Shown piece by piece: positions 7,427 through 24,018 of a DNA stretch of 24,079 nt (the stretch's first letter is position 1; each line of letters opens with the position of its first letter). Under the pieces are notes generated by a model, which was not told where the DNA came from, did no database searches, and worked only from the letters and a program-made list of their open reading frames with translations. Position numbers and translations under genes: made by a program. Origin of the DNA: a virus; the IMG/VR virus record IMGVR_UViG_3300046467_002393, positions 1 to 24,079 of that record. One strand, given 5' to 3'.

Positions 7427-8473
7427 TTATTGTTTTAAACCTGCCAAACGTAACATTCGATCCATATTTGGATCAACAGTAGTAGAAGCATCATAATGAT
7501 TGCCCCTATTTGAACCTAGAAGCATCGTAGTTGTAGGTCTGATAACAGCTTCGCGAAGTGATTCTGTGCGGCGACTCTCGCGAGGGCCCACTGCGCTTTG
7601 AAGTGTATCAAACAACATCTTCGTCTCTTCTACTGAACTGGCGTTACGAACAGCTTCGACAATATTTTCTTTTTGTCGCTCATTCAAGGAGGCGCTATTC
7701 AAAGCCTTATTTTGATATAGAAGTTTGGCGTTTTCCAGTATCAAAATGTTTAATTGATCCTTTGCTTCTCCAAGCAAAGATTTTAAATCACCGACCTCAG
7801 ATCTAAGGCCTGATAGTCGCGATTCATAAAGTTCTAGATATTTTTCTTTCTCGTCGGTTACTTCTTCCGACTGTGCTGCGGCCGCTTCTTCTTCCTCGGC
7901 CATTTCTTCAGCATGCTCTTGTGTTTCGCCACTAGCAACGGGCGCCCAGCCACCTAGGCGGGCTGCCACATCGACTGTGAGCTCTTCAGCAATAGCATCG
8001 ATAAGTTCATCAGAGACTTCTACGTCTTCCTCAAGGGGCGCAGGCTCTTCTAGGGCCGCTTCGCCCTCGTCGGGGAGGCCCAGGTCTTCTTCACCACCAA
8101 AAATCTCTTCAGCGGTCTCTTCAGAACCCATAAGCTCTGCTGCTTCGGGGCCCTCTCCGGCTTCCTCTTCGGCATGAAGGCGAGCTCTGAGATCATTAAA
8201 GTCAATCTCAATTACTTCATCGTCTTCTGGGCCTTCAATGTCGGTATCTTCATGAGCTAGCGGCACATCATCCATAAAGGAAGCATTTTCTGCCGGGGCT
8301 TCTGGTTCCAGGCCCATGCCCATATCCATGCCCACATCTTGCTCTAGCAAGGTGTCTAGAGCGGTCTTTACCTCGGTAGAATACTTCTCCAATACAGCGT
8401 TTTCGGCATTTTTGAGGGCCGCTTCTTTCAGGGCACCGGCATCAACGATGGCTTGTTCTAACAATGAGGACAT
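7427..8473 (-). CDS. gp22: Prohead core scaffold protein, T4 gp22-like
   Basis: 348 aa. Internal scaffold around which the capsid assembles; in T4 it is degraded by the prohead protease before packaging. Residues 1-45 are helical (SSLLEQAIVDAGALKEAAL). Residues 55-210 are very acidic and low in complexity (many Glu/Asp with Ala, Gly, Pro). Residues about 205-260 look like a coiled coil. A better conserved C-terminal block, NAKLLYQNKALNSASLNERQ (248-267) followed by EETKMLFDTLQ (282-292), resembles the gp22 segment containing LTESQREKVSALVEG. A possible protease site LRE occurs at 306-308. It is immediately upstream of the capsid gene, as gp22 is next to gp23 in T4. Low-complexity composition makes alignment weak, so position is half the evidence. 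Confidence 0.82.
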   Translation of the reverse strand: MSSLLEQAIVDAGALKEAALKNAENAVLEKYSTEVKTALDTLLEQDVGMDMGMGLEPEAPAENASFMDDVPLAHEDTDIEGPEDDEVIEIDFNDLRARLHAEEEAGEGPEAAELMGSEETAEEIFGGEEDLGLPDEGEAALEEPAPLEEDVEVSDELIDAIAEELTVDVAARLGGWAPVASGETQEHAEEMAEEEEAAAAQSEEVTDEKEKYLELYESRLSGLRSEVGDLKSLLGEAKDQLNILILENAKLLYQNKALNSASLNERQKENIVEAVRNASSVEETKMLFDTLQSAVGPRESRRTESLREAVIRPTTTMLLGSNRGNHYDASTTVDPNMDRMLRLAGLKQ

Positions 8474-8550: not shown

Positions 8551-10134
8551 CTAGCTCGTAGGCGCTGTTATCGAATAATAATAATACGCTATTCTCAGAA
8601 CGCCGGCACCTGGGGTTGCATTATGCGTTATAAGTAGATCGGAGGCTTCATGGAAAACCAAGTTCATGCCGCCTGCCGTTATGGTTGTAGTACCCGCGGC
8701 TTCAAGTTCGCCGTCAGACATGTCTCGACTACCATCATCAGACCCGGCAAACGCATTCGCATCGTGCTCCCAGCCAATCTTTTTTACAAATGCATTATTG
8801 GTGATTGCAGTAGTAACCCTGATTCCAAGTGCGACCGGAATGGACAATGCGGGGAAAAAGTTGGAAGACTCGGTCGTGACGTCACTGGTGCTGCAGGTAA
8901 CTGACGCTTCCTTGACCCTTAGCGCGCATATGGATCCGTTTGCTCCGACTGCAGCACTAATTATATCCCCTTCCGCGACATCGGCTTGAACAATTTCTAT
9001 CGGTATTGTCGCAACTGCAGCAGAATTCGAATTTGAAAGCTTAAGTAGTGCCCGGGCAGTAGTGTCAGTCGTGCTGGATGCAACACTAATTCCATCTCCA
9101 GAAGTCAGCGCATTGGCTGTAATATTGATTACATTTGCATCAATATTAGCAGCAACAATATTGAGCGCTATTTGATCTGTGTCATCATTATCAATGAGAA
9201 GCGCAGGCGCACCGGTGGTTGAATCATTTTCAATCTCGACGCCGGCACCGTCAAGCTTTATTCCTCCGTCGACAGTCATTGTAAGGTGTGCTGTCGCGCC
9301 GACGGTAGTATCAACAGTTGTTATTGTGGTAGCACCAGCAGCCCCAACGGCGACTGTACAATAATCAGTGGCATCGGCCGAGCTCATAATTTTTATATCT
9401 GAGCCGGCGCCGTTTTCGGCGGTGATCCTGATACCATCATTTGTAGTTGCATCTATAACCGTGAGGTCGATGCCAACGTTTGTATTGGTACCTTGCGTAC
9501 TGGCCGAATCTACATCGATATCCAAACCTGTCATAGTTACGTTGGAGCCGGCGTGATTCGTCGCAGCATCATTCATATCGAGATCGATCCCTATAAACGC
9601 AGATGTGGTTGAATTCGCCGTCACTCCGTCTTTGTCAAAATCAATGTGAAATGTTGTCGGAGTAACCGCGGCGGTGGCGTCATCATTATGATCAATAAAA
9701 AGTACTTTTCCGGTGGTCAAACAATCATCAGCCTCAATATCTATAATATTCGCCGTTGTCTGGGTCGCGGCAATATGAAGAGCGTTTTCATCAACATCCG
9801 CTGCATTAATCACCAAAGCCGGTAAGCCGTGGTTTGACGCCTGAGATACTTCAAGCACACCTTCGGGCGCGTTGGTCGAATTTCCAATACTTACCGCTTC
9901 GGTACCACCGTCAACAAAAAACGTATGCGTCATATTCAGAGATTCAACGCGGAAATCGTGATCGTAGCCGGATTCATTGGATATGAAACTGCCGTAGTTA
10001 ACAATCGTATTACTTCCAGAAACCGTAAGGCTTCCTGTAATAACAACAGGAAGCGCTCCAGCGGGCCCCTGTGTCAAAGAACCGGTACCGCTAAGAATTG
10101 TTTCGCCCTGAGAGCCACTAATAATAACAGGCAT
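8551..10134 (-). CDS. Fibre-like repeat protein (527 aa), shorter paralogue of the 1521-aa protein
   Basis: 527 aa, rich in Thr, Ala, Asp, Asn, Gly and Ile with very few basic residues, built of beta-strand repeats such as ALHIAATQTTANIIDIEAD and TTGKVLFIDHN. Residues about 55-115 (DFRVES, then HTFFVDGG, then VSIGNSTNAP) match residues about 123-185 of the upstream fibre protein. Residues about 113-290 match that protein's residues about 1273-1448, including a 71-bp stretch identical at DNA level. The C-terminal 150 aa are different, end in LRIAYYYYSITAPTS and may be a distinct tip or head domain. The start overlaps the upstream stop as TAATG, so it is translationally coupled. Likely a virion appendage, tail fibre or capsid fibre; the position between head genes makes either possible. 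No chaperone or peptidase domain was seen. Confidence 0.72.
   Translation of the reverse strand: MPVIISGSQGETILSGTGSLTQGPAGALPVVITGSLTVSGSNTIVNYGSFISNESGYDHDFRVESLNMTHTFFVDGGTEAVSIGNSTNAPEGVLEVSQASNHGLPALVINAADVDENALHIAATQTTANIIDIEADDCLTTGKVLFIDHNDDATAAVTPTTFHIDFDKDGVTANSTTSAFIGIDLDMNDAATNHAGSNVTMTGLDIDVDSASTQGTNTNVGIDLTVIDATTNDGIRITAENGAGSDIKIMSSADATDYCTVAVGAAGATTITTVDTTVGATAHLTMTVDGGIKLDGAGVEIENDSTTGAPALLIDNDDTDQIALNIVAANIDANVINITANALTSGDGISVASSTTDTTARALLKLSNSNSAAVATIPIEIVQADVAEGDIISAAVGANGSICALRVKEASVTCSTSDVTTESSNFFPALSIPVALGIRVTTAITNNAFVKKIGWEHDANAFAGSDDGSRDMSDGELEAAGTTTITAGGMNLVFHEASDLLITHNATPGAGVLRIAYYYYSITAPTS
9473..9543. repeat. 71-bp identical repeat, copy in the 527-aa fibre gene
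   Basis: Identical base for base to 10564-10634 in the 1521-aa fibre gene, a direct repeat with offset 1091. It is the best conserved core of a longer similarity (about 9265-9795 against 10355-10880). It encodes the segment ending in MTGLDIDVDSASTQGTNTNVG. It indicates recent duplication or gene conversion between the two genes. Confidence 0.95.
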
Positions 10135-13100
10135 TAGTCTTCGATCTCCTCCATCAAAAGTTTAAATCGCTTTCCGGTTTTATTACTTCTTATTGTTAAG
10201 TAGTTTTCTTCCTCGATTACAGTCCAATCGCCGCGTTCGTTTGCTAGATGAAGGTCTGCGGTGTAAACATTGGCCCAGCGTGCTGCACCGGAACCTAGAT
10301 TTCTGGTGCCATCTCCATCTGGCAACACATCGCCGCCGGCTGGGCCTAGAATGATATCGCCGTCGACTACAAAGTTAAGGTCCGCGGCAGCGGCGCCGTG
10401 ATCAACAGTTGTTATTGTAGTCTCGCCGGATGCTCCAACAGCAATTGTGCAATAATCCTCGGCGTCGGCGGATGAAATCATCTTGAGATCTACGCCGGCG
10501 CCGTTTTCGGCAACAATCCTGATGCCATCATTCGTAGTTGCATCTGTAACCACAATGTCTACACCAACGTTTGTATTGGTACCTTGCGTACTGGCCGAAT
10601 CTACATCGATATCCAAACCTGTCATAGTTACGTTAGCGTTGGCATGATTTGTCGCAGCATCGCTCATATCGAGATCAAGTGCTGTCCATGTAGATGTTAC
10701 ACCGTCGGCGACGACGCCGCTTTTATCAAAATCTATATGCATTGTTGTGGGAGTAACCGCGGTGGTGGCAGTATCATTATGATCTATGTACAAAGCCTTA
10801 CCTGTGGTTAGCGCCGCTACCTCGATATTAACAACGTCAGCATCGATATTGGCAGCATCGATATGAAATGCCATCAGATCGGTGTCATCATTATCAACAT
10901 GTAGGGCCGCGGCGGGGGCACTCGTGCCAATACCGACTCTTCCGTCTTCATCAATAACCATTTTCGTAGTAGCAACTTCGCTCTTCCCGGTCTGAAAGTG
11001 TAAGGCAGTTGAATTAACAGTATCTGAAAACGTAGCTTGTGCTATTGCTGCAATAGATGCTCCAATTTCATCTGAATCTAGTCCAGTATCAAGGGGTGCA
11101 TAAAAATTGATACGTCCTAAGACATCATTTGCTACAACCGTGGGTTCTTTTGTTCCAAGCGTTAATACGGCGCCAACTGTAGTGAGGCCGGCTTCTATTT
11201 CGAGGGTTGATATGGGAGTCATTGTGCCAATGCCAACGTTGCCCGCGGGGCTTATAGTCATCCGAGCTTCGGCGCCGGTGGACCAGGAATTCGCTGTTCC
11301 AAAAGTCAGATTGCTTCCGACGCTGCTGTCGGCCTCAGACCAGACACCGGCTTGTGTTTTATTAGCATGGGTCGCGAGGGAACCATCTCCGCCGGCGCCG
11401 AACGTGATACCCATCGAATAGCCGTCAGTAACTACCGACGGCTCCAAATGAAGCCCGGCGAAAGCGGCGGGGCCCATCGTGGGGTAACTAATGTCAGCAG
11501 ACTTGTTAATTGTCAGAGTAGTTAGTGACCCTGTGAGAGAGGTAGTACCGGGGCGCGAAGTCGGGCCAATACTGACAAGTCCGTCTTCATCGATGCGCAT
11601 TTTCGTAGTAGCAACCTCGCTCTTTCCAGTCTGAAAGACCAAAGCAGTTGAATTAACAGTATCTGAAAACGTAGCTTGTGCTATTGCTGCAATAGATGCT
11701 CCAATTTCATCTGAATCTAGTCCAGTATCAAGGGGTGCATAAAAATTGATACGCCCCAAAACATCATCTGCTACAACCGTGGGTTCTTTTGTTCCAAGCG
11801 TTAATACGGCGCCAACTGTAGTGAGGCCGTCCTCTATTTCGAGGGCTGATATGGGAGTTGTTGTGCCGATGCCGACTTTACCGGCACCATCAATAGTCAT
11901 GGCATTTACATCTGTACCATTAGTTCTCATTCGGAAATACATATTTGGACTACTGGAGTCACCTATACTATCAATATAAACATGTCCACTGGTGGTATCA
12001 GCCGTCAATTTCATTCCGTAGTCGTCCAGGCCGCCTCGTGTGAGAAGTATTGAGCTATCGTTACCGGCGCCCGGATGTCTTACCTGTAGTTCAGCCGTGG
12101 GAGTCGCCGTGCCGATGCCGACCTTTCCAGCACGGAAAAGAGCAGCGTAATTCGTATCTGCACCAGCAACATTTACATCCAAACCAATGTTTGATACTGT
12201 TCCGCCGGCGGATGCGGCAACAACATCGAGATCCATTCCCGTCATCGTTGATGTGCCAACATTAGTGGCGGCATCATTCATATCAAGGTCTAGACCAATG
12301 AAAGTGGATGTTTGCCCAGAGGCAACGATTCCAGTCTTATCAAAATCTACATGTACAATAGGACCAGCAGCGGTTGAAGTTGTTGTTGCATTGCCGGCAT
12401 CAATAAACAACGCTTTTCCAGTAGTTAGCGCTGTTGCTGCTACGTCAATAACATTTGCCGTTGTATTGGCAGCATCAATATCGAGCGCTATTTCCCCGGC
12501 GTCGTTATTATCAATGAGAAGCGCGGATTCATCTGTGCCATCATCGTTTTCAATCTCGACGCCGCCGCCGTCAAGCTTTATCAAACCTGCTGCGGTTTGA
12601 GTGATTGTCCCATCAACAGTAAAAGTAAGGTTTGCGGCTGCAGCACCGCCATCGACGGTGGTCAAAGTAGTAGCGCCATTGGTGGTGGTTGAAATTGAAA
12701 AGAAATCGGCTGTGTCAGCAGAGCTTACAGCCTTAAAGTCTGTTCCCCCATCAGCACAGTTGATAATTAAACCATTATTGGTGTCTGCGCCGGCGGAAGT
12801 AAGCTCCATGCCCGTCGATGTCGATGTTCCATATATGGACCCTGATGCCCAAATAACAGCACCTTTTACGATGGGTGTTCCGGCGTCAGCAGCATGAATT
12901 AACTTTGGCGTAACGTGAAGGCCAACCATGGTGTTGGAGCCATTAGTGGCGGTTGTATTGTCTACATCTACATTTATACCATAGATTGTATTATTTGATG
13001 TACTGGTTCCTGTTTTATCTAGATCTACACTTAATCCAGTCACAGTAGCCGCTGTAGTATCGGAAAAATTCTTATCTAAAGCGATACCAGTAATGCCGCC

Positions 13101-14699
13101 ATGAGACGAGACATTTAATGCTGTTGCGCCGATTGCCGCTCCCTCCTCTTGTGCAATCGCGACACTGTTTCTTGTGCTAGTATTAGCTGAATTGTCGTCT
13201 ACATGTAGCGCGTAGCCGGTTGTAAGGGCGGCCGTCGATATATCCAATGCTGCGCCAGTTGTGAGTGCGTTGCCATCAATTTCTGCAACGATGCCTGTCG
13301 TTTGTTCTGAGTCAATCCTAAGTGCGCGGCCGGCGGTTCCTGCAGCGCCATCAAAGTCTATATCTAAGCCGACAATTGCGTTTGAGTCAGAAAGATTGGC
13401 ATGATCTTTTACAATCTTGGCAACCGAATAAGCATCTGTAGAGGTTCCAGAAGCATTAGCATAAAGTAGATTAGCTCCACTTAAACCATTGCTTGTGCTT
13501 GTTACATTAACTCCATTTCCTGTCGTAAGTGCATCAGCAGAAAGGTCAACACCTGTTCCTGTAGTAAGAGCATCGCCATTAATCTCGGCAACTACGCCGG
13601 TTGTCTGCTCGGAGTCGATTCTGAATGCGCGGCCGGCGGTTCCTGCAGCGCCATCAAAGTCTATATCTAAGCCAACAATTGCGTTTGAGTCAGAAAGATT
13701 GGCATGATCTTTTACAATCTTGGCAACCGAATAAGCATCTGTAGAGGTTCCAGAAGCATTAGCATAAAGTAGATTAGCTCCACTTAAACCATTGCTTGTA
13801 CTTGTTACATTAACTCCCTTTCCTGTCGTAAGTGCATCAGCAGAAAGCTCGGCCACAATGCCTGTCGTTTGTTCTGAGTCGATTCTGAATGCTCTTGCGG
13901 CGGTGCCGGCCGTTGAGTCAAAATCAATGTCTAGACCCACAACGGCGTTGGAATCATGAGCGCGGTTGCCGGTCGCGGCAATTTTAACTACCGATCCTGC
14001 TGTGGTACTTGTACTGGTGCTTGTAATATTTAGCGCAGCACCCGATGTTAAGCCATCTGCGGTAATATCGATTACATTTGCGGTTGTTACAGCGTCTGCC
14101 TCAATATCAACAACGTCAGCATCAATATTAGCAGCATCAATATGAAGCGCCATTTTGTCTGTATCGTTGCTGTCGAGAATGAGGAGTGGGACGCCACCAT
14201 CGCTAGCGTTAGCGATTTCTAGCGTAGCAGCCGGAGCATCTGTTGAGTCGCCAATGCTTACTCGATTGGAAGAGCCTTCAACAAAAATCATGTGAGTCTC
14301 ATCTACTGATTCAACACGGAAATCAATATCCAATCCGGCCTCGTTAAATATGGCATGCTCGCCAGCGAGGCCGTTGGTGACCAGCGGGCCCTTTACTAAT
14401 ACCGAACCCGTAAACTTATGGAAGTCATCAGATGAATTACCAAACTCAGTTGAGCCCGACGAGTGAATGTTATAAACATTTTTTATTGTGTAGCTGCTGG
14501 CGCTAATTGCTCCCGATACGACCAGGGCGCCGGTTAAAACTAAAGTGCTTGCTGCATACCCGTGCACCGAAGCGGTATGAAACATAAAATTTTCGCTACC
14601 GCTGATTGAAGTATCATAGGTGTGAAACTGTACGGAACCAGTCGGGCCACTGCCCGTGGCAAAATCAGCGCATCCTACATATGCCCAGCCGCTAGCCAT
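10134..14699 (-). CDS. Giant fibre-like repeat protein (1521 aa)
   Basis: 1521 aa, the longest gene in the window. The N-terminal 115 aa (MASGWAYVGCADFATGSG) may be the virion attachment part. DFRVESVDETH then VSIGDSTDAP follows (about 123-157). Residues about 165-850 are many imperfect beta repeats of the form ALTTG-x(2)-L-D/N-I and A-x-x-GLDIDFD. Residues about 858-1265 contain four VGIGT-x(2)-P-x(3)-L-x-V/I units, a motif common in tail-fibre and spike proteins. The last 75 aa (NLGSGAARWANVYTADLHL, then GDWTVIEEENYLTIRSNKTG) resemble a C-terminal block frequent in marine phage fibres. Two internal duplications are recent (separate entries). It is coupled by TAATG to the 527-aa gene downstream. 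Likely a trimeric tail or head fibre for host recognition; the exact location in the virion cannot be read from sequence. Confidence 0.78.
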   Translation of the reverse strand: MASGWAYVGCADFATGSGPTGSVQFHTYDTSISGSENFMFHTASVHGYAASTLVLTGALVVSGAISASSYTIKNVYNIHSSGSTEFGNSSDDFHKFTGSVLVKGPLVTNGLAGEHAIFNEAGLDIDFRVESVDETHMIFVEGSSNRVSIGDSTDAPAATLEIANASDGGVPLLILDSNDTDKMALHIDAANIDADVVDIEADAVTTANVIDITADGLTSGAALNITSTSTSTTAGSVVKIAATGNRAHDSNAVVGLDIDFDSTAGTAARAFRIDSEQTTGIVAELSADALTTGKGVNVTSTSNGLSGANLLYANASGTSTDAYSVAKIVKDHANLSDSNAIVGLDIDFDGAAGTAGRAFRIDSEQTTGVVAEINGDALTTGTGVDLSADALTTGNGVNVTSTSNGLSGANLLYANASGTSTDAYSVAKIVKDHANLSDSNAIVGLDIDFDGAAGTAGRALRIDSEQTTGIVAEIDGNALTTGAALDISTAALTTGYALHVDDNSANTSTRNSVAIAQEEGAAIGATALNVSSHGGITGIALDKNFSDTTAATVTGLSVDLDKTGTSTSNNTIYGINVDVDNTTATNGSNTMVGLHVTPKLIHAADAGTPIVKGAVIWASGSIYGTSTSTGMELTSAGADTNNGLIINCADGGTDFKAVSSADTADFFSISTTTNGATTLTTVDGGAAAANLTFTVDGTITQTAAGLIKLDGGGVEIENDDGTDESALLIDNNDAGEIALDIDAANTTANVIDVAATALTTGKALFIDAGNATTTSTAAGPIVHVDFDKTGIVASGQTSTFIGLDLDMNDAATNVGTSTMTGMDLDVVAASAGGTVSNIGLDVNVAGADTNYAALFRAGKVGIGTATPTAELQVRHPGAGNDSSILLTRGGLDDYGMKLTADTTSGHVYIDSIGDSSSPNMYFRMRTNGTDVNAMTIDGAGKVGIGTTTPISALEIEDGLTTVGAVLTLGTKEPTVVADDVLGRINFYAPLDTGLDSDEIGASIAAIAQATFSDTVNSTALVFQTGKSEVATTKMRIDEDGLVSIGPTSRPGTTSLTGSLTTLTINKSADISYPTMGPAAFAGLHLEPSVVTDGYSMGITFGAGGDGSLATHANKTQAGVWSEADSSVGSNLTFGTANSWSTGAEARMTISPAGNVGIGTMTPISTLEIEAGLTTVGAVLTLGTKEPTVVANDVLGRINFYAPLDTGLDSDEIGASIAAIAQATFSDTVNSTALHFQTGKSEVATTKMVIDEDGRVGIGTSAPAAALHVDNDDTDLMAFHIDAANIDADVVNIEVAALTTGKALYIDHNDTATTAVTPTTMHIDFDKSGVVADGVTSTWTALDLDMSDAATNHANANVTMTGLDIDVDSASTQGTNTNVGVDIVVTDATTNDGIRIVAENGAGVDLKMISSADAEDYCTIAVGASGETTITTVDHGAAAADLNFVVDGDIILGPAGGDVLPDGDGTRNLGSGAARWANVYTADLHLANERGDWTVIEEENYLTIRSNKTGKRFKLLMEEIED
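10564..10634. repeat. 71-bp identical repeat, copy in the 1521-aa fibre gene
   Basis: Partner of 9473-9543; identical over 71 bp and in the same orientation. It lies near the 3' end of the 1521-aa gene. Crossing over between the copies would fuse the N-terminal part of the long fibre to the C-terminal part of the short one. Confidence 0.95.
10942..11228. repeat. Internal direct repeat B, copy 2 (offset 639 bp)
   Basis: About 287 bp repeated at 11581-11867 within the 1521-aa gene. Positions 11005-11114 are identical to 11644-11753 (110 bp); the flanks differ at scattered sites. The offset of 639 bp is 213 codons, so the frame is kept. It encodes the unit starting VGIGTMTPISTLEI and containing FYAPLDTGLDSDEIG. 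Confidence 0.93.
11581..11867. repeat. Internal direct repeat B, copy 1
   Basis: Partner of 10942-11228. It encodes the unit starting VGIGTTTPISALEI (residue about 938 of the 1521-aa protein). The two copies are separated by a unit with a different sequence (GPTSRPGTTSLTGS onward), so the arrangement is A-B-A' rather than a simple tandem. Confidence 0.93.
13323..13544. repeat. Internal direct repeat A, copy 2 (offset 303 bp)
   Basis: 222 bp matching 13626-13847 with 3 differences by my count. The offset of 303 bp is exactly 101 codons, so the duplication is in frame. It encodes the segment with LSGANLLYANASGTSTDAYS and IVGLDIDFDGAAGTAGRA (residues about 384-459). A third, diverged relative starts near 13861. 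Confidence 0.94.
13626..13847. repeat. Internal direct repeat A, copy 1
   Basis: Partner of 13323-13544, encoding residues about 284-358 of the 1521-aa fibre. The near identity shows a duplication much younger than the other, diverged repeats of the same protein. Confidence 0.94.
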
Positions 14700-15161: not shown

Positions 15162-15179
15162 CTTCTATAATGACTATTT
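15155..15179 (-). other. 8-bp perfect inverted repeat spanning the bS21 stop codon
   Basis: Minus strand AAATAGTC, 9-nt loop, GACTATTT. The TAG stop of the bS21 gene is inside the first arm. The stem has only two G-C pairs and no following U-run, so it is weak as a terminator. It could mark an RNA-processing or stability point between bS21 and the fibre genes. Confidence 0.35.
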
Positions 15180-15389
15180 CCTTTTAAAGCGTTTTCTTTC
15201 TAAACGTTCTTTTTCTCTCCGTGCTTTTTTAGATTTGATCTTCCTTTTGACAGAGGGCTTTATGTAATAAGCGGTCTTGCCGCGATATGTCTCTAGAATG
15301 CCTTCTTTCTTAACTTTTTTGATAAATCTTCTGATTAATCTTTCTGAGTTTTCATTTGGTCTTCTCGTCACCATTACATTGTCTGCCAC
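15174..15389 (-). CDS. rpsU: Ribosomal protein bS21 homologue (phage-encoded)
   Basis: 71 aa, the same length as E. coli bS21. The family pattern is clear: RRPNENSERLIRRFIKKVKK (residues 9-28) parallels [20 protein letters not shown], then EGILETYRGKTAYYIKPSVK parallels [20 protein letters not shown], and the C-terminus is a very basic helix. bS21 binds the 30S platform near the 3' end of 16S rRNA and affects translation initiation. The start is GTG at 15389, chosen because AGAGGT lies 5 nt upstream, whereas the alternative ATG at 15374 is about 20 nt away from it. The ribosome site overlaps the stop codon of the preceding 150-aa gene. It is embedded in the structural operon, so it is expected to be made late with virion proteins. 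Phage bS21 genes are known from marine and large phages. Confidence 0.93.
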   Translation of the reverse strand: MADNVMVTRRPNENSERLIRRFIKKVKKEGILETYRGKTAYYIKPSVKRKIKSKKARREKERLERKRFKRK

Positions 15390-15394
15390 AGAGC

Positions 15395-15400
15395 ACCTCT
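15395..15400 (-). promoter_or_regulatory. Ribosome binding site deciding the bS21 GTG start
   Basis: Minus strand AGAGGT, 5 nt before the GTG at 15389. It overlaps the TAG stop of the upstream 150-aa gene, so translation of the two is probably coupled. It supports the GTG over the internal ATG. Confidence 0.75.
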
Positions 15401-15851
15401 ATTTTCCTGCATCGATATGAGCTTTCCAGTTCCTGCCAACGCTGCCGAGCAATCCTGATATATCTACTCCGGGATCGCTGGGGGCTACATTTGCCAGGGG
15501 GCCTTGCGCTGTCTGGGGGGCGCCAGGAGCAGTACCCGCGGAAGCTATCGGCGTCGTACCCTCAAATAGATTTACGCCATTATATGCGTTCTCCCCCATA
15601 GCGCCCATAAGCTTCTTTCTGTGCTCATCTGTTTTTTGTTTTTGTTCTTGCAAAGATTGCTGTCGCATCTCTGCAAAGTTGTTTTCTTTTGCTTTTGGCT
15701 GGGGCTGCTGAGCTTCAACAATTTGAATTCCACCCATTCCACGAGCCACTTCTGAAACTACTCCTGATAAAACGCCGTCCTCAAATATCACCTCCTTGAT
15801 ACATTCTTTTATCAATGGCTTGAGCAGCTTCTTTAGTTCTGTCTTGTTCAT
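15399..15851 (-). CDS. Unknown helical protein with repeated (I/L)-x-E motifs (150 aa)
   Basis: I do not recognise a family. Residues 1-30 form a strongly amphipathic helix: KKLLKPLIKECIKEVIFEDG, with IKE (14-16), IKE (18-20) and IFE (22-24), all of the (I/L)-x-E form cut by T4-type prohead proteases. Residues 45-85 are Gln/Lys/Glu-rich and probably coiled. The C-terminal part is Gly/Ala/Pro-rich (GTAPGAPQTAQGPLANVAP) and probably disordered. It overlaps the 1032-aa gene by 4 nt (ATGA), so the two are coupled and may act together. A small internal head or core protein is a reasonable guess, but nothing proves it. Confidence 0.72.
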   Translation of the reverse strand: MNKTELKKLLKPLIKECIKEVIFEDGVLSGVVSEVARGMGGIQIVEAQQPQPKAKENNFAEMRQQSLQEQKQKTDEHRKKLMGAMGENAYNGVNLFEGTTPIASAGTAPGAPQTAQGPLANVAPSDPGVDISGLLGSVGRNWKAHIDAGK

Positions 15852-18800
15852 TTAATCCCCGACAATGTTTTCCAACGCTCTAGTTCTTTAGCCTCTTGCT
15901 GCTGTTGCTGTTGTTGTACCTCGGCGCCCTGCTCTTGAAGCTCACCATAAACAAAATCAGCGATTGCCAGTGCTAAGGCTGCGGTTTGTTCAGCGTCGGG
16001 CCACTTTGTGAAAGGTTTGAGGGCCTGCTGACCAGATAGCTGTCCACGAAGAAAGTTTTTCAGGCTTTTTCTTACGGCGCCGGCGCCATTTTTATTAACA
16101 AAAAATAGTATCTTGCCATCGCGAACATCCCCTTTGGTTCGGGGTCTAAGTTTGGTACCAGAGCGCATAGCATCGCCCTTGACGCGAGCCAACGCCGTTT
16201 TTCCGGTTTCCGGCTCAAGCTGGCCGCCGGTCGCAGGATCCCGCAAACGAGGCTCTTCGCCGGCTGCAGGTGCCGCGAGCTTAAACGCCTTTGAACGGCC
16301 CTTGGTCCCGGCAGCGGCTTCTCTTAGTTCTGCAAGAGCTTCCAAAACAGTTTCTCTTAGATCTGCATCTCGCGATTGTTCTTCTCGTACGGAAACAACC
16401 GGTCGAGGTTGTTTTGGCCATTTGTCAACGTCAGCATTTCGAGCCAGTCCGTAAGCGCGCGCATTTGTCCACTCCATCCATTGCTCAACCCTGCCTAAAA
16501 GATCATCTAGGCCTGGGCCGCCGACTTTAAGACCGTTTTCGGCAGCAAAATCACGAACTGTTTTTTCTACAGAAGGTTTATCGGCTCCGTCCACCGTTAT
16601 CTCATATTGTTTTGGTTCGACTTCGATGCCGCCGCCAGGTCGCGACCCTGGTTTTACGCACTTGCCGTCATCGTCGCGAATCATATCCTCCGGACACGGC
16701 TCATCGAGAGGGTTCGTAATAATAATAATCTTCTGATCAATAAGATATTGTCTTATTTGGTTTATTTCAATTTGCGTAAGCTCTTTAGAATCAATGTCGA
16801 TATTAAGTTCTGTTTTAATGTTCTGGATTTGTTGATTAAACTTACTTTGATCTCTCTGATCAATATTAATATTGTCACCTTGCTTGACGAAGTAGTCTAC
16901 AAAGTTGTTGGTAACGTTGTTAACTACGGTTTTATCGCCACTTAGCTTATTTATCAGACTTACCAATATGTCGAAATCCGCAGTGGTGGTGATGTCGCGA
17001 CCCGTGCGCGGCGTCGACGTCGTGACACACTTCTGCAACTCTTCATCCCAAGATTCATCGTCTGGGCACTTCCCTTCTTCTTCATCCTTGCACCAGCCTA
17101 TTTCCTTCCAGTCATCCCAGTGTTCGTTCGGTACAAACTTCCCGGTATCGGGACATATGCATCCCGGCTTCTCCGGATCCTCGCTGTTACGAAGACCCAT
17201 ATAGCCGCAATCTTCAGCAATAATCTCATCTTTAATGCATTTGCCTTGACCGCCATCATCACGAGGTGATATTTCTGAGAACACATAGCCTTCGGGGCAA
17301 TCGCATTTCTTTTCCTCTTCATTCCAGTCCGTTTTGCCTTGCAGCTTTTCTTCATCAGTAGAAGGACACTTACCCGGCGGTGGCGGTGGCGGCGGGGGCT
17401 TCTCTTCGCACGGCGGTTCAGAACCATCAGGGCACTTTTCTGTTTCGTCGCAAGGTACATCTTTCATTGTGTCGACTTTTTTCTTGAGATAGGAGATGCG
17501 CGAGCCCCAGGTAAGCGCTTTGCCTTCCTCGTCTTTAGCACCGCGTCTCCAGAACGCAGCTGCGCCGCCAGCCGCGGCCATAGAGGCTGCTAGGCCCAAC
17601 AAAAATGGGGCCCCTACTGCTCCAACGGCTTTTAAGACTTGATTTTTAAGAGTTGCTGCCGGAACTTGCGCGGCTGCTTCCATTCCAGGTCCCACGGAGT
17701 CCTGTATGGCTGCTTCGAAATTGCCGGGATTTAGCCCAAATACAGTGCCCCCTTTGCCCGACATGTCGCCTGCAACAAATAACTTATGAGGATCTAGATT
17801 GTTGGTTATAGCCTGTTCTAAGGCTGCTGGGCCGCCGGCATCGGTCATGACGCCCTTGTGGGCAAACAATTTTCTCATGGCTGGCGTCAATGCCCCCAGG
17901 GCCGGGCCTCCGGGCCGGCCAAAGTCGGCGAAGTCTTCGCCTCCCATCGCGCGAACCGTTTTTATAATGCCATCTCCTTTGGAAACATTACCTATGCTCT
18001 GTTTAACCGCTTGCCTAACAGCTGTTCTGGCAGCTGCGGATCCAGGCGCTGCTTCCATATCGGTCATACCTGTTAATAGACTTTGGAAGAAATCCGAATT
18101 TACAACGAAACCGGCCACTGCAAAGCCCGCGGCCCATTTAAGGAGGCCAAGCGGAAGTTCTTTGCTGTATGCTGCCTCGTAACCCTTTGCGGTTGCTCCC
18201 TGTTTGGCGCCAAGGTCTGTTTGCTCGCTAAAGCCCATCCTATAGTAATACTGATCTTTCGTTCTATAGTCTTGAAAGTAAATTACTATATAACGCAGTA
18301 CTGCTATACGAATATTGGCCGTTACACAATTGATCTTCTCGGTTTCAAAATCCTTTACAATCGCTTCGTATACCTGACTAAGACGCTCGCTCTCGGACTT
18401 AAAGTCGCTGGCAGTTGGCTCGTTTGGAAAACGTCGTTTATCCAGCTGGGTATAAACATTTTGCATGATTGCGGCGCCTTCGGGATCGATCTCTTTTAAT
18501 TTCGTGAGTTGAGTCGCGACTTCTGCCTTTGCGTTGTCTTTCGCCTGCCTTCGCTCCTTAGAATGTAAAACCTCTTCGCCGCCAAGCAAGGTACCTTCTC
18601 CGCCGGCGCCGAGGACGCCTTCCGGGGCAAGGATATCCCACACACCCGGTAGGTCAACATTGATCTCAGTCCAGCCTTTCTTTTCTGCTTCTCCACCGAG
18701 ATCTTTAAGTATTTGTTTTAAAGATGTCTCATCGTGATCTTTGAGTGTATCAAAAGAATAAATTTTATACTTATCAACCAGCTTATCACCATTGGGATCT

Positions 18801-18946
18801 AAGGTTTTAATTTGCTTAATAAGCTTTCTTTTATAGCTACCAAATAGCTCGTTAATCTCTTCTTCAGTAAGAACTATGCCTTTTTCGGCAAACTCTTCTT
18901 TTATTATTTGCTTAACCTGGCCTTCAGTCAGCGACTTTTTACTCAT
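15848..18946 (-). CDS. Large virion-associated protein with membrane segments and Cys-rich region (1032 aa)
   Basis: No named family recognised. N-terminus MSKKSLTEGQVKQIIKEEFA has an LTE protease-type site at 6-8; a second LTE is at 26-28. Residues 30-260 are mainly helical and charged. Hydrophobic segments lie at about 264-283 (LPLGLLKWAAGFAVAGFVV) and 438-466 (KAVGAVGAPFLLGLAASMAA), separated by an Ala/Gly-rich linker. Residues 499-640 hold 13 cysteines in an acidic, Pro-rich stretch with an eight-proline run (517-524) and CPEGYVF- and CPDDESW-like loops. A two-Cys unit occurs at 751-763 (CPEDMIRDDDGKC). The C-terminus is basic and helical with seven glutamines (1011-1017). It lies 2 nt after the protease gene and overlaps the 150-aa gene by ATGA. 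Candidates are a capsid-internal or DNA-ejection protein that enters the host membrane, or a large appendage protein. The functional call is inference. Confidence 0.7.
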   Translation of the reverse strand: MSKKSLTEGQVKQIIKEEFAEKGIVLTEEEINELFGSYKRKLIKQIKTLDPNGDKLVDKYKIYSFDTLKDHDETSLKQILKDLGGEAEKKGWTEINVDLPGVWDILAPEGVLGAGGEGTLLGGEEVLHSKERRQAKDNAKAEVATQLTKLKEIDPEGAAIMQNVYTQLDKRRFPNEPTASDFKSESERLSQVYEAIVKDFETEKINCVTANIRIAVLRYIVIYFQDYRTKDQYYYRMGFSEQTDLGAKQGATAKGYEAAYSKELPLGLLKWAAGFAVAGFVVNSDFFQSLLTGMTDMEAAPGSAAARTAVRQAVKQSIGNVSKGDGIIKTVRAMGGEDFADFGRPGGPALGALTPAMRKLFAHKGVMTDAGGPAALEQAITNNLDPHKLFVAGDMSGKGGTVFGLNPGNFEAAIQDSVGPGMEAAAQVPAATLKNQVLKAVGAVGAPFLLGLAASMAAAGGAAAFWRRGAKDEEGKALTWGSRISYLKKKVDTMKDVPCDETEKCPDGSEPPCEEKPPPPPPPPGKCPSTDEEKLQGKTDWNEEEKKCDCPEGYVFSEISPRDDGGQGKCIKDEIIAEDCGYMGLRNSEDPEKPGCICPDTGKFVPNEHWDDWKEIGWCKDEEEGKCPDDESWDEELQKCVTTSTPRTGRDITTTADFDILVSLINKLSGDKTVVNNVTNNFVDYFVKQGDNINIDQRDQSKFNQQIQNIKTELNIDIDSKELTQIEINQIRQYLIDQKIIIITNPLDEPCPEDMIRDDDGKCVKPGSRPGGGIEVEPKQYEITVDGADKPSVEKTVRDFAAENGLKVGGPGLDDLLGRVEQWMEWTNARAYGLARNADVDKWPKQPRPVVSVREEQSRDADLRETVLEALAELREAAAGTKGRSKAFKLAAPAAGEEPRLRDPATGGQLEPETGKTALARVKGDAMRSGTKLRPRTKGDVRDGKILFFVNKNGAGAVRKSLKNFLRGQLSGQQALKPFTKWPDAEQTAALALAIADFVYGELQEQGAEVQQQQQQQEAKELERWKTLSGIK

Positions 18947-18948
18947 CT

Positions 18949-19551
18949 TTAGTCCCTCAGTGCTTCATTCAGGGCGCGATTAATGCGATCTGCTTTTGTA
19001 AATACTTCATTTATTCTATTCTTGTTTTCTCGCATCATAAATGCACCCGGGGTTGAAGGTTCCGATACCATATCAAAACAGATTAGCTGAAAATCATCTT
19101 CAACTATAGTTTGGCCGGAGCTCTCCGAGACGGATCCTAAGCCACGAGAAGAGATGCCGATAGAAACCCCAGAGTCTACTAAAGATCGGAGGATGCCTCC
19201 CGAAGGAGTATCAAGTACTTTCATCTTTCCCATCACCCTGTTATCGTCCATCCAAATATCAGTTATCTGATGAGAAACGTTTCGAAGATTAATGACTGAC
19301 TCTTCGGGATGGTCTAGCTCTCCGAGAGCGCGGTTGTCGTCAACAAGCTTCTTGTAGTTTTTCACTTCTCGTTCTAAAATCTTTTGAGGATAGATGCGTC
19401 CATTGCCGTTTTGGGTTTCTGCCATCTGCATCATACCAGATAGCATCATACCGCCAGCAGTAACAAACTTCTTTTCAGCTTCTGTAAGGAGATCCTGACA
19501 GGCACCTCCATCACAAAGCTCATAATATTCTCGGAGAAGTACCTTGGTCAT
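18949..19551 (-). CDS. gp21: Prohead maturation protease, T4 gp21-like (MEROPS S77-type)
   Basis: 200 aa (T4 gp21 is 212). Serine protease inside the prohead that cleaves scaffold and capsid proteins after (L/I)-x-E. Family features: NGNGRIYPQKILEREV (48-63); GELDHP (77-82) carrying the likely catalytic His81; GISSRGLGSV (132-141) carrying the likely nucleophile at Ser134 or Ser135; and CFDMVSEPSTPGAFM (158-172), the usual region after the catalytic Ser. LRE (6-8) and LTE (22-24) near the N-terminus could be self-cleavage sites. A weak GGAT ribosome site lies before the ATG, 3 nt after the 259-aa gene, so coupling is likely. The scaffold and capsid substrates are about 10 kb downstream instead of adjacent as in T4. 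Confidence 0.9.
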   Translation of the reverse strand: MTKVLLREYYELCDGGACQDLLTEAEKKFVTAGGMMLSGMMQMAETQNGNGRIYPQKILEREVKNYKKLVDDNRALGELDHPEESVINLRNVSHQITDIWMDDNRVMGKMKVLDTPSGGILRSLVDSGVSIGISSRGLGSVSESSGQTIVEDDFQLICFDMVSEPSTPGAFMMRENKNRINEVFTKADRINRALNEALRD

Positions 19552-19554
19552 AGT

Positions 19555-20334
19555 TTAATCCATGGCCGGCTCAGCAGCAAAGCCTCCCTCGGGCGGGGGC
19601 CCGTCAGGGCCTCCCATTGCCTGGTCGATGGCTTCTCTAGCTGCAGCCATTCCCGCCTCAAAAGCTTCTTCGGGAGATAACTGGCTGATGTCAGATGCGA
19701 CATCCCCTTCTTCGGAAGGACAACCCCCTTCGTGACTATGCTCCTCGGCTAAAGAAGCGCGCACAACCTGAATATCTTCAGCCGGAACGCTTTCCAAAAT
19801 AGTGCCATCTTGAAGCCTCATATCATAATGGGTAACTCTATTGAGCTTCCTGTCGTAATTATGATTAATAGCCTCGGCCATCTTAATCTGGCCTTCATGC
19901 TGTACACCACCGTGATGAACGCAATAATGATTGGGGGCAAATATGCTTTGTTCTTCGTGAAGATCGGCGGCCGGACCTGACCAACCGTCCCCCGTATGGA
20001 TGCTCCGTTGTTGAAGGTCCATTATGCCCTCTAGCTCATTTTGCACACCCTCTAGATCTAGGCCAGCTGGTTTATAATCATCTGGCATAATCATTATATA
20101 TTGAGAATGTGCGCCGGGAATGTCATCGATATTTTGGGCATATAAATTAGGATCTTCCGGTATTAAAGTTATACGATCGCCGGCGATGCCATATCCAACC
20201 AAACGGGTATTAGAAGGCAGCTTCGCTCCCTCGAGCGCGGCGCTAACCAAGCTGCTGATTCCCTCTCCGCGATTCACTGTCTCGTCCAAGAAGTATCTTG
20301 GATCTATTCTTTTTACATTTTTTCTGCGTGCCAT
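19555..20334 (-). CDS. Unknown protein with His/Cys cluster (259 aa)
   Basis: No family recognised. The N-terminus is basic (MARRKNVKRIDPRYFLDET). Residues 41-85 are mixed alpha/beta. A His/Cys-rich stretch NHYCVHHGGVQHEG (135-148; H136, C138, H140, H141, H146) is followed by KMAEAINHNYDRKLNRVTHY and a second small cluster, EEHSHEGGC (197-205). Together these could bind metal. The last 50 residues are acidic and Gly/Pro-rich. An AAGGA ribosome site precedes the ATG by about 9 nt. It directly precedes the prohead protease (3 nt). By position it could be a prohead core or protease-associated protein (T4 has gp67 and gp68 between portal and protease), but no sequence similarity to those was seen. 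Confidence 0.72.
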   Translation of the reverse strand: MARRKNVKRIDPRYFLDETVNRGEGISSLVSAALEGAKLPSNTRLVGYGIAGDRITLIPEDPNLYAQNIDDIPGAHSQYIMIMPDDYKPAGLDLEGVQNELEGIMDLQQRSIHTGDGWSGPAADLHEEQSIFAPNHYCVHHGGVQHEGQIKMAEAINHNYDRKLNRVTHYDMRLQDGTILESVPAEDIQVVRASLAEEHSHEGGCPSEEGDVASDISQLSPEEAFEAGMAAAREAIDQAMGGPDGPPPEGGFAAEPAMD

Positions 20335-21231: not shown

Positions 21232-22049
21232 TACGAATTTATTTCCCTAACAAGTTCTTGAATGTTTAGAATTCTCGTAACAACTTCTTGAGTCGGAGAT
21301 GCACTCTTAAAGCCTTCTAGAATGTTCAGTACTTTTTTGGTCTTCTCGACCATTTCCTCATCAGTAGAAACTTCTTCCATTTTTAGTGAGGCTGTGACTG
21401 TCTTCTTAAGTCGCCCTATTTCTTCATTTAGATACAACTTTAACTCTAAACCATTGTCGGCAAAAGAAGCAATATATTTACCAAGTAAATCTTTCTGTTC
21501 TTTAAGGAGACCGGTATATCGCTCATTAAACTTCTTTACGAAAGAATGATAAACGATATTATCGATTGGTTCTAACTTGTTCTCTTCTAACTTTTCTGTA
21601 GAGTTCATCATTTTAACCAACAGATCTTCATGCAAAACTCTCTGTTTCACGGGAGTGCTGGTATTGAAAATGGTAGCTACGGTCGCGAGAGATTTAAAGT
21701 TAGGAACAAAAGTATTCCACGCATCCTTGGAGAGCGCTTTATTAATCTTATTAATTATTTTAGTCTGCGTATCAAAAATACTCTTGCCATCTAAAAGCGA
21801 GTGAGCCATCTTAGTTTCTTGCAAAAGCTTCTCGGCTAGATATAACTCAAGATCGGTTGTTTCTACTAGCGTTCTATAATACTCCAACTCTCTTCCAAGA
21901 ATTGTCGAGGATCCAAAAGCTTCTTTTATAAGACTCGAAACAAAGTTCTTTCGCCTGGTATCTTTACCAACTATGGCGTCAGTTAACTCTTTTACCAACA
22001 CCTCATACAAAAATGCGGTGTTTCTTTTTTTATTGTGTTTTAGTCTCAC
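21231..22049 (-). CDS. Unknown helical protein (272 aa), GTG start
   Basis: No family recognised. Almost wholly alpha-helical and Lys/Glu/Leu-rich, with segments like RNTAFLYEVLVKELTDAIVG (9-28) and long heptad-like stretches near the C-terminus (EEMVEKTKKVLNILEGF), so coiled coils are likely. The start is GTG at 22049, supported by GGAG 10 nt upstream; it overlaps the 3' end of the portal gene by 20 nt. The next ATG in frame is much further in. It sits directly after the portal, where T4 has small prohead-core genes; a scaffolding, core or portal-associated role is a guess. Confidence 0.75.
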   Translation of the reverse strand: MRLKHNKKRNTAFLYEVLVKELTDAIVGKDTRRKNFVSSLIKEAFGSSTILGRELEYYRTLVETTDLELYLAEKLLQETKMAHSLLDGKSIFDTQTKIINKINKALSKDAWNTFVPNFKSLATVATIFNTSTPVKQRVLHEDLLVKMMNSTEKLEENKLEPIDNIVYHSFVKKFNERYTGLLKEQKDLLGKYIASFADNGLELKLYLNEEIGRLKKTVTASLKMEEVSTDEEMVEKTKKVLNILEGFKSASPTQEVVTRILNIQELVREINS

Positions 22050-24018
22050 TTATTATGATCTCCGCTTCTTTTTCTTCTAGTTCAGCAATTAGCTTTCGGA
22101 TACCTCTGGTATTCTCAAGTAATTTTGTTTCTTCATCATCTCTATAAATAGGTTCTAACTCTTCATAAAGTGCGTTGATGTTTAAAAGCTCGTGTCCTGG
22201 GAAGATATTTCTATGTGCCGTCTTGGCTCCGCCGCGGGCGTCGCTGCGCAACTTTCGTTTTGTGGGGCCTGATTTATTAGTTTTTCGAGTATCAGCTTTC
22301 TTCTTGTAATACTTCTTTCCTTTCGCTTGCGGCTGCTGGCTGGCTGTTGTTGGCTTATCTTCCCTCCGCGCTGGCGCCGCCAAGAGGGCGCTCTCGTCGC
22401 CTTCTGCCGCGGCGTCCCCGGTGGCCGCTTCAGGTTCACCACCAAGGTCACCACCAAGGTCACCACCAAGGTCACCACCAAGGTCACCACCAAGGTCACC
22501 ACCAAGGTCACCACCTAGATCGCCGCCTAGGCCGCCGCCGGCCATTCCTGCCGCGGCAGTCTCTGTAATAGCGTCAAGAGAGGCCTGATATTTACGATCG
22601 TAATAAGCTTCGCGCTGGTTACGTAAGAACTCTTCATCAGTTAGATTGAGAATGTTTTTAGCAATCCAATGCTTACTAAACATGCCCTCAACAACGTTGT
22701 TGGCAAGATCAAACTTAGTTCGCAAGTGCTCTATTTCCTGAAGTTCTGCGATCTTAGAAGGGTTGTTCAAAACTAACTTGAAAGAAATTAGATCAGGACC
22801 CCTGTATCCCAAAGTAAACAAATGAACTACAGCAATCTTCTCAAGCTCTGACAAGAAAGCTCTCTGAAGTCGCTGAATCGTTCGTGCAAAACGAACATCT
22901 TTTTGAGCGAGAGTTGACTTGTCTTCTTCGCCACCTTCGGTCATTGACAAATATGAATGAGGAATCTTGATAGCAGAGAATAACTTATCTCGAATATACT
23001 TTACATCATCGATATCATTAAGCTGAGATGCACCGGCGAGGGTGGTGATGTCTGAACCAACACCGCCGCGAATTGGAATAAAGTAATCTTCTTCAACGGA
23101 AAGGGGATTATATCGCAAGTCAACACGCCCCGTGGTGTCGTCGACCAGGGAGTTTCTCTTCAATGAAGTCTTAACTTTCTCCATATATTGCTCAACATCT
23201 TGCGGTGGAATATTGCCTACATCAATCTTAAACATACGACGCTCGGGGGCGCGCACAACACGATAAGCCAGCATTGCGTCTTCAATCAAAACTAACTGAC
23301 GCCATATGCGGCGCGCAGGATCCAAGACTGAGGTGCCATAAGGTGCATGTTTATCGTTTCCAAGAATGCGGAAGTGTGCCAGTTGCCAGTTCTCAAATGT
23401 CATATTGGCCGAATTCCACTGGTACTGAACATAGTTGGGGTTTGTGGGATCTTGCCCCTCGAGTCTTTCCACCTCTCCGGATGGAAGGCCGATAACGCTC
23501 TTGACTCCAAGAACTTCATCGATGTCTAAATAAAGAAAGAAATCCCCATACTTACACATTGTTCTTGCCCAACCAAAAGCATTAAACTCTATATTAAGGG
23601 CATCATAATAAAGGGCCTCTAAGATACTTTTGATCTCTTCGTTGCGACATTCAATCTTAATTAACTTATTAAACTCATTTGAGGTAGTCATCTCGTCGGC
23701 ATAAATGTCAATAGCCGATGCTAGCTCGGGCATAAACTCCATCTGATCGAAATCAATATATCGCTCGTTGCGATTCTGGTTCCGCATAGCTGCGGAAGTG
23801 AGCATGTTATAGTTTCTGGAAAGGTTATCGGCTGAGCGTTTGAACTGTTGTCCGCTAGCGCTTCTAAAGCGATACTGATATTTATCCAGCGCTGAGCGTC
23901 GTTCTTCACGAGTAAACTGGGCGCGATAGTTAATCAGAGGCCCAGAGAGGAGCCTGGTTAATCTCTTGAAAAGAGGTGACGCTGGGTTGCGTGGGTTGTT
24001 TTCGTCGTTGGCTGCCAT
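22030..24018 (-). CDS. gp20: Portal protein, T4 gp20-like
   Basis: 662 aa (T4 gp20 is 524). Twelve-subunit ring at the packaging vertex through which DNA enters and leaves. Family-like blocks: NRNERYIDFDQMEFMPELAS (82-101) followed by AIDIYADEMTT (102-112); HAPYGTSVLDPARRIWRQL followed by LIEDAMLAYRVVRAPERRMF (about 223-263); and DVKYIRDKLFSAIKIPHSYL followed by STLAQKDVRFARTIQRLQ (about 338-382). The extra length is mainly a C-terminal extension. This begins with LGGD repeats (about 495-527), followed by an Ala/Glu linker, a Lys/Arg-rich stretch (KGKKYYKKKADTRKTNKSG) and a final acidic helix. It has an AAAGGA ribosome site 8 nt before the ATG. The stop lies 20 nt inside the next gene. Confidence 0.93.
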   Translation of the reverse strand: MAANDENNPRNPASPLFKRLTRLLSGPLINYRAQFTREERRSALDKYQYRFRSASGQQFKRSADNLSRNYNMLTSAAMRNQNRNERYIDFDQMEFMPELASAIDIYADEMTTSNEFNKLIKIECRNEEIKSILEALYYDALNIEFNAFGWARTMCKYGDFFLYLDIDEVLGVKSVIGLPSGEVERLEGQDPTNPNYVQYQWNSANMTFENWQLAHFRILGNDKHAPYGTSVLDPARRIWRQLVLIEDAMLAYRVVRAPERRMFKIDVGNIPPQDVEQYMEKVKTSLKRNSLVDDTTGRVDLRYNPLSVEEDYFIPIRGGVGSDITTLAGASQLNDIDDVKYIRDKLFSAIKIPHSYLSMTEGGEEDKSTLAQKDVRFARTIQRLQRAFLSELEKIAVVHLFTLGYRGPDLISFKLVLNNPSKIAELQEIEHLRTKFDLANNVVEGMFSKHWIAKNILNLTDEEFLRNQREAYYDRKYQASLDAITETAAAGMAGGGLGGDLGGDLGGDLGGDLGGDLGGDLGGDLGGEPEAATGDAAAEGDESALLAAPARREDKPTTASQQPQAKGKKYYKKKADTRKTNKSGPTKRKLRSDARGGAKTAHRNIFPGHELLNINALYEELEPIYRDDEETKLLENTRGIRKLIAELEEKEAEIIISETKTQ
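22060..22063 (-). promoter_or_regulatory. Ribosome binding site for the GTG start at 22049
   Basis: Minus strand GGAG about 10 nt before GTG, within the 3' end of the portal gene. It is what makes the GTG the likely start of the 272-aa protein. Confidence 0.6.
22441..22512. repeat. 12-bp tandem repeat in the portal gene (six perfect copies)
   Basis: Plus-strand unit ACCAAGGTCACC repeated exactly six times, with two decayed copies adjacent (22513-22536). On the coding strand the unit is GGTGACCTTGGT and gives G-D-L-G, so the protein has an LGGD ladder at about residues 503-526. Perfect identity of the units suggests recent expansion by slippage. Each gain or loss keeps the frame. Confidence 0.97.

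Follow-up and report, generated by a model that had tools for sequence, protein, structure and literature searches.

A candidate capsid cargo protein with a scaffold-type C-terminal tag, encoded beside the prohead protease of a marine T4-like virus

Why should a T4-like phage encode a protein of 1032 amino acids (aa) and of no recognised family directly beside its prohead protease, and where would such a protein act? The question is raised by a marine T4-like virus from a group of uncultured, abundant marine phages; its entire 24,079-base IMG/VR record (IMGVR_UViG_3300046467_002393) is the window analysed here. The protein, P0001, is encoded 2 nucleotides downstream of the gene for the protease gp21, and the 3' end of its gene overlaps the start of the next one, P0002 (Table 1). 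A first-pass annotation, made from the letters of the window alone, had proposed a capsid-internal or ejected membrane protein, explained well as a pilot protein; the reading frame and its position next to the protease are real, its strand is now given, and the interpretation as a whole is partly supported.

The reading favoured here, with a probability of roughly 0.7, is that P0001 is an accessory capsid cargo protein which would be targeted to the scaffold core by terminal tags that gp21 removes, following a logic like that of the T4 internal proteins. Its key feature is the C-terminal peptide RWKTLSGIK, which the first-pass annotation did not mention. The proposed location inside the capsid is strongly supported, because P0001 ends in a tag of scaffold type, has paired sites of gp21 type near its two termini and occupies a putative cargo slot beside gp21.

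Terminal tags and protease-type sites

Related loci (80 in total) were fetched with gp21 as the anchor, and the interval between gp21 and P0002 or the gene for ribosomal protein S21 (rpS21) is referred to as the slot. Many slot proteins end in (L/I)xES...RWKxLAGIK, and the gp22 scaffold proteins of this clade end alike, in R(W/M)xxLAG(I/L)K. Among the 2126 open reading frames (ORFs) of the gp21-anchored loci there are 20 distinct tagged tails, nearly all on slot proteins or gp22; on six long contigs with 843 genes, all eight tagged genes encode gp22 or a slot protein. A regular expression finds the tag on gp22 in 10 of 11 gp21-anchored loci, the eleventh gp22 ending in DRLQRLAGIKK. In G003, whose slot is empty, the tag is present on gp22 only.

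The tag followed by a stop codon was also sought as a DNA pattern in 2.9 million IMG/VR viral contigs, with gene position unused. Three patterns together gave at least 339 matches, comprising at least 279 gp22, at least 33 slot proteins, at least 12 other proteins and at least 15 ORFs too short to assign. The pattern (x)WKx(L)(A/S)GIK-stop matched 105 times (68 gp22, 28 slot proteins, nine ORFs below 60 aa) and in no other gene class; these 28 slot genes adjoin gp21 and/or a P0002-type gene. RM(K/R)xLAGIK gave at least 116 gp22, at least two slot proteins and at least two short ORFs, and RWxxLAGI(x)K gave 95 gp22, three slot proteins, four short ORFs and 12 others. Most of these 12 begin with MKLTxxxLRxLIxEE, an N-terminus of the kind found in P0001. 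Non-slot proteins with N-terminal LRxLIxEE and C-terminal ERWQKLAGIIK were seen in L470, L362, L383, L419 and L444, some of these contigs being 200-300 kb long, and L470 has two adjacent doubly tagged genes (698-1693 and 1707-2663). A tagged 351-aa protein in L054 (6941-7996, +; LITESRFDRWREIAGLLRS) has Asp-rich DTDGDG repeats of calcium-binding type; it lies on the other side of gp21, so that cargo would not be confined to the slot.

Among cultured phages, the gp22 of T4 (which ends YAKVASRF) and that of cyanophage S-RSM4 lack the tag. It is present on gp22 in Flavobacterium phage immuto (VSRWQKLAGIIK), where no other protein encoded in the first 150 kb carries it, and in Microcystis phage Mel-JY01 (VERMKKLAGIVK). 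Synonymous codon changes are seen within the tag, and slot genes stop at TGA but gp22 genes at TAA, which argues for selection on the peptide and not on a DNA signal. The same two observations rule out chance or a DNA-level signal, such as a late promoter or a ribosome site placed at the end of the gene, as the origin of the tag.

The T4 protease gp21 cleaves after L/I-X-E (PMC9026906), and motifs of this type are enriched at both ends of the slot proteins. Of 25 tagged slot proteins in the non-redundant set, 23 have an (L/I)xE no more than 25 residues upstream of the tag, compared with an expectation of 4.2 derived from internal windows of these proteins; in 21 the residue after the site is small or polar (S, A, G, H, Q or N), with 1.3 expected. 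Usually it is LxES, 4-8 residues upstream of RWK. At the other end, the motif occurs in the first 35 aa of 34 of 37 slot proteins (9.6 expected). These N-termini are mostly of two kinds, WSSF...WRxFLxE and LTxxQLxxIIxEE, and an N-terminal tag is found in 29 of 40 C-tagged proteins other than gp22, compared with 45 of 586 background genes (p 4e-21). The LTE that had been pointed out within the first eight residues of P0001 is indeed there, at residues 6-8; taken alone it says little, since the protein has 11 (L/I)xE triplets in all.

Starts of the type MKLIMENWRxFLxE, which resemble the slot N-terminal tag, also occur elsewhere, in G008 (61113-61523, 76410-76847), G005 (66993-67592, 67564-68043) and G002 (90096-91055). 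Some of these proteins look by eye like Nudix or HAD-type enzymes, and they may be further capsid cargo.

In principle, the tag could recruit the gp21 protease or a chaperone, and thus mark gp21 substrates, rather than bind the core or shell. Tagged proteins are expected gp21 substrates and the tag stands beside (L/I)xE sites; however, neither gp23 nor gp21 of the window is tagged, though both are processed in T4. This alternative is unlikely, and it would leave the cargo reading intact, since only the partner of the tag would change.

A hypervariable locus after gp21

The slot was scorable in 65 of the 80 loci (15 were not scorable); it is empty in 34 of these and filled in 31. Its occupants range from 180 to 1048 aa and are mostly unrelated, most of them being alike only at their ends. 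Even among phages whose gp21 is 83-91% identical, the content of the slot is 836, 697+163, 329 or 322 aa, or none, and L007 has an empty slot despite a gp21 of 86% identity. Relatives with an empty slot retain gp22 and P0002. One of the 42 'slot' proteins, that of L083, is a cyanophage gp22 encoded directly after gp21, which leaves the C-terminal count unaffected. To judge from these comparisons, the slot is a hypervariable putative cargo locus, with occupants that appear dispensable and vary among close relatives.

This distribution bears on two other functions that P0001 might have. The first is that of an essential pilot protein, forming a trans-envelope DNA channel as podovirus ejection proteins do. 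Capsid targeting and the pair of hydrophobic helices that the P0001 subfamily retains would suit such a role, but the slot is empty in more than half of the scorable relatives, L007 included, and many slot occupants lack any hydrophobic segment. The pilot function proposed in the first-pass annotation is thus disfavoured, and we consider it very improbable; cargo resembling the internal proteins and Alt of T4 is preferred over it because the slot protein appears dispensable.

The second is that of a core assembly factor which is never ejected: a scaffold helper that would join the core via its gp22-type C-terminus and then be degraded by gp21. T4 has scaffold helpers in gp67 and gp68, and its internal protein IPIII has a role in assembly. 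The scaffold tail and protease-type sites are what such a factor would have in common with the scaffold, the gene lies within the core-gene cluster, and the protein is largely helical with low-complexity regions. Against this, about half of the close relatives have an empty slot though gp22 and P0002 stay, slot content changes between phages with closely similar gp21, and a conserved pair of hydrophobic helices together with Cys modules is unexpected in a scaffold helper. An assembly factor is therefore unlikely, and accessory cargo remains the preferred reading of P0001.

The body of P0001 and the surrounding genes

Between its ends, P0001 has one module in common with other slot proteins, a helical stretch of residues 121-235. 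Among 5821 ORFs, an iterated jackhmmer search recovers it from many slot proteins and from nothing else. AlphaFold2 models it with a predicted local distance difference test score (pLDDT) of 88 and a predicted template modelling score of 0.78; Foldseek gave no match to this model at E<=0.001 in PDB or BFVD, and sequence matches in PDB are designed or unrelated helical proteins.

The full-length model is almost wholly helical, with a mean pLDDT of 43 and low confidence outside residues 135-228. The check for a fibre or baseplate fold that had been suggested for P0001 gave none, and such a fold was rejected on the basis of the helical model, at the confidence just given. Since the protein is large and lies near the long fibre-like genes at 8551-14699, it might be imagined to belong to the tail, a fibre or the baseplate and to be merely misplaced among head genes; the absence of a beta fold, the scaffold tag and the lack of any relation to the fibre genes make this extremely improbable.

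The two membrane-like segments noted earlier, at residues 264-283 and 438-466, are the most hydrophobic stretches of the protein (Kyte-Doolittle values of 1.74 and 1.76). Both align with corresponding segments of six relatives, the most distant of which show an identity of only 21-24%, and are mostly stronger there (1.4-2.3). As to the designation as a membrane protein, the subfamily keeps the hydrophobic helices, but in P0001 itself their score for membrane insertion, on a scale of the Hessa type, is marginal. For P0001, an action associated with a membrane is plausible.

The acidic, Pro-rich region with 13 Cys in 142 residues had been counted exactly; its net charge is -24, it has 19 Pro, and none of 200,000 random placements of the protein's 16 Cys matches the clustering. 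The disulfides outside the cytoplasm that had been suggested for this region would be a possibility. A CBM_14 hit to this region (E 0.08) was judged not credible. The description of the C-terminus as basic and Gln-rich applies to residues 901-1032 (net +7, 14 Q), but not to the last 50 residues, which are acidic (net -5).

Neither P0001 nor the other slot proteins scanned gave a Pfam or PHROG match above cut-off, and tblastn with P0001 against 50,697 phage records gave no match; no relative in a cultured phage was found for P0001 or P0002. A direct IMG/VR search with P0001 returned one relative only (L002, 85% identity). P0001 was not recovered by a gp22 profile search, and the window has a separate gp22-like gene.

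Table 1. Features of P0001 and of the genes around it (window coordinates).
Feature	Position	Strand	Basis
P0001, 1032-aa slot protein, proposed capsid cargo	15848-18946	-	ORF, ATG start
P0001 putative N-terminal address segment, residues 1-36 (SLTEGQVKQIIKEEF...LTEEEINELF), four (L/I)xE sites	18839-18946	-	sequence; slot-protein statistics
P0001 LTE, residues 6-8, where gp21 may cut, ahead of Gly9	18923-18931	-	motif
P0001 helical module, residues 121-235, common to slot proteins	18242-18586	-	jackhmmer, AlphaFold2
P0001 hydrophobic segment 1, residues 264-283	18098-18157	-	hydropathy
P0001 hydrophobic segment 2, residues 438-466, then Arg-Arg	17549-17635	-	hydropathy
P0001 acidic Pro/Cys-rich region, residues 499-640, CP...C pairs	17027-17452	-	composition
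P0001 LQE, residues 1003-1005, possible gp21 site before C-terminal tag	15932-15940	-	motif
P0001 C-terminal tag RWKTLSGIK, residues 1024-1032, common to gp22 scaffold	15851-15877	-	sequence
gp21 prohead protease (Peptidase_S77)	18949-19551	-	PF03420 E 4.7e-31; phrog_207 7.1e-56
gp20 portal protein	22030-24018	-	phrog_213 3.1e-75
gp23 major capsid protein	5589-7403	-	PF07068 7.4e-72
gp22-like scaffold, immediately preceding gp23, C-terminus MDRMLRLAGLKQ	7427-8473	-	position; homolog family with same terminal tag
gp22-like scaffold C-terminal tag RMLRLAGLKQ	7430-7459	-	sequence
P0002, conserved ~140-150-aa gene bounding slot (MNKTELKKLLKPLIKECIKEV...)	15399-15851	-	comparison across loci
Phage-encoded ribosomal protein S21	15174-15389	-	PF01165 E 9.9e-13; kept beside slot in relatives

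The portal, gp21, gp22-like scaffold and gp23 genes are all on the same strand. The conserved gene to which P0002 (150 aa in the window) belongs has the motif MKKxDLKxLIKPLVKECIHEVLLEEG and is followed by rpS21. The gene before gp21 (19555-20334, -) encodes 259 aa, whereas in G001, the closest relative, it has only 99; a segment like its CVHHGGV occurs in the slot ORF of L024. In the C-terminal part of the portal protein, GGDL repeats follow one another (22182-22520, -), and their number differs in L002. The two fibre-like genes (-) are long and repetitive, and the final module of the 1521-aa one, RWANVYTADLHLANERGDWTVIEEENYLTI..., is found again in relatives. As to the host, the only leads were two contigs of metagenome-assembled genomes, one of them Micavibrio with an empty slot, which is too few for naming it.

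Cargo delivery and known systems

The mechanism proposed for P0001 can be outlined as follows. The amphipathic N-terminal (L/I)xE segment and the C-terminal RWKTLSGIK would act as address labels and bring the protein into the scaffold core during prohead assembly. Cleavage by gp21 at (L/I)xE sites near both ends would then release mature P0001 inside the head, from which it probably leaves with the DNA, to act at the host envelope or beyond it. That the tag mediates binding to the core, that gp21 cuts the protein and that the virion contains it is what we infer; ejection into the host, by analogy with T4 IPI and Alt, is plausible.

Several points weigh against this scheme. The C-terminal tag is missing from about 17 of the 42 slot proteins, and in P0001 the first clear (L/I)xE met upstream of the tag is LQE, at a distance of 19 residues, and not the usual LxES at 4-8. 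The tag shows biology common with the scaffold and does not identify the binding partner; candidates are the scaffold, shell, portal or protease. As to ejection and membrane insertion, the arguments are analogy and a marginal hydrophobicity.

More generally, there is about an even chance that in a wide group of uncultured T4-like phages a two-ended, cleavable address code (WRxFLxE or LTxxQLxxIIxEE at the N-terminus, the scaffold tail RWKxLAGIK at the C-terminus) loads fast-changing passengers for delivery to the host, the C-terminal peptide of slot proteins being taken from, or common with, the scaffold; any protein with a scaffold tail would then be predicted capsid cargo. If true, a peptide common to scaffold and cargo would account for the selection of cargo proteins in the absence of homology, and proteins delivered by the capsid could be found from sequence alone in abundant uncultured marine phages. 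The locus would be likely to hold anti-defence or host-takeover proteins, and the short loading tag is open to testing. The capsid targeting signals described in the literature consulted here are N-terminal (PMC9026906, PMC5694885, PMC9024508, PMC10052503). A C-terminal, scaffold-type targeting tag appears to be undescribed, no description of such a signal common with the scaffold having been found in the open-access literature.

Among known systems, gp7, gp16 and gp20 of P22 and gp14, gp15 and gp16 of T7 are ejection proteins stored in the head that are membrane-active after ejection and essential; we know of no scaffold-type tag on them. Engineered cargo loading into P22 uses fusion to the scaffold protein, entry being through the capsid-binding C-terminus of the scaffold. 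Compared with the slot proteins, this system is engineered, has a different scaffold and involves no release by a maturation protease. DarB of P1 resembles the slot proteins as an accessory protein that a terminal signal directs into the capsid (PMC9024508), but the signal is N-terminal and P1 has no identified separate scaffold. The ejection (E) proteins of the giant phages SPN3US and phiKZ are also internal head proteins whose propeptides are removed by a gp21-type protease (PMC5694885, PMC10052503); unlike those of slot proteins, the propeptides of this cargo are N-terminal and often exceed 100 residues.

The closest likeness is to IPI, IPII, IPIII and Alt of T4, which are dispensable, hypervariable head proteins with an N-terminal peptide containing an L/I-X-E site. 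The T4 internal proteins and Alt enter the core via an N-terminal capsid targeting sequence; the internal proteins copurify with gp22, lose the targeting sequence to gp21 and are ejected, and Alt is cut at its C-terminus too (PMC9026906). Association with gp22 and C-terminal processing of Alt are thus further likenesses, and the T4 internal proteins are poorly conserved among relatives (PMC9026906; PMC5694885; PMC9958956). The slot proteins differ in having no detectable sequence relation to these proteins and in being mostly far larger. Their genes lie directly after gp21, and their C-terminal tag is common with a scaffold, whereas the gp22 of T4 is without the motif.

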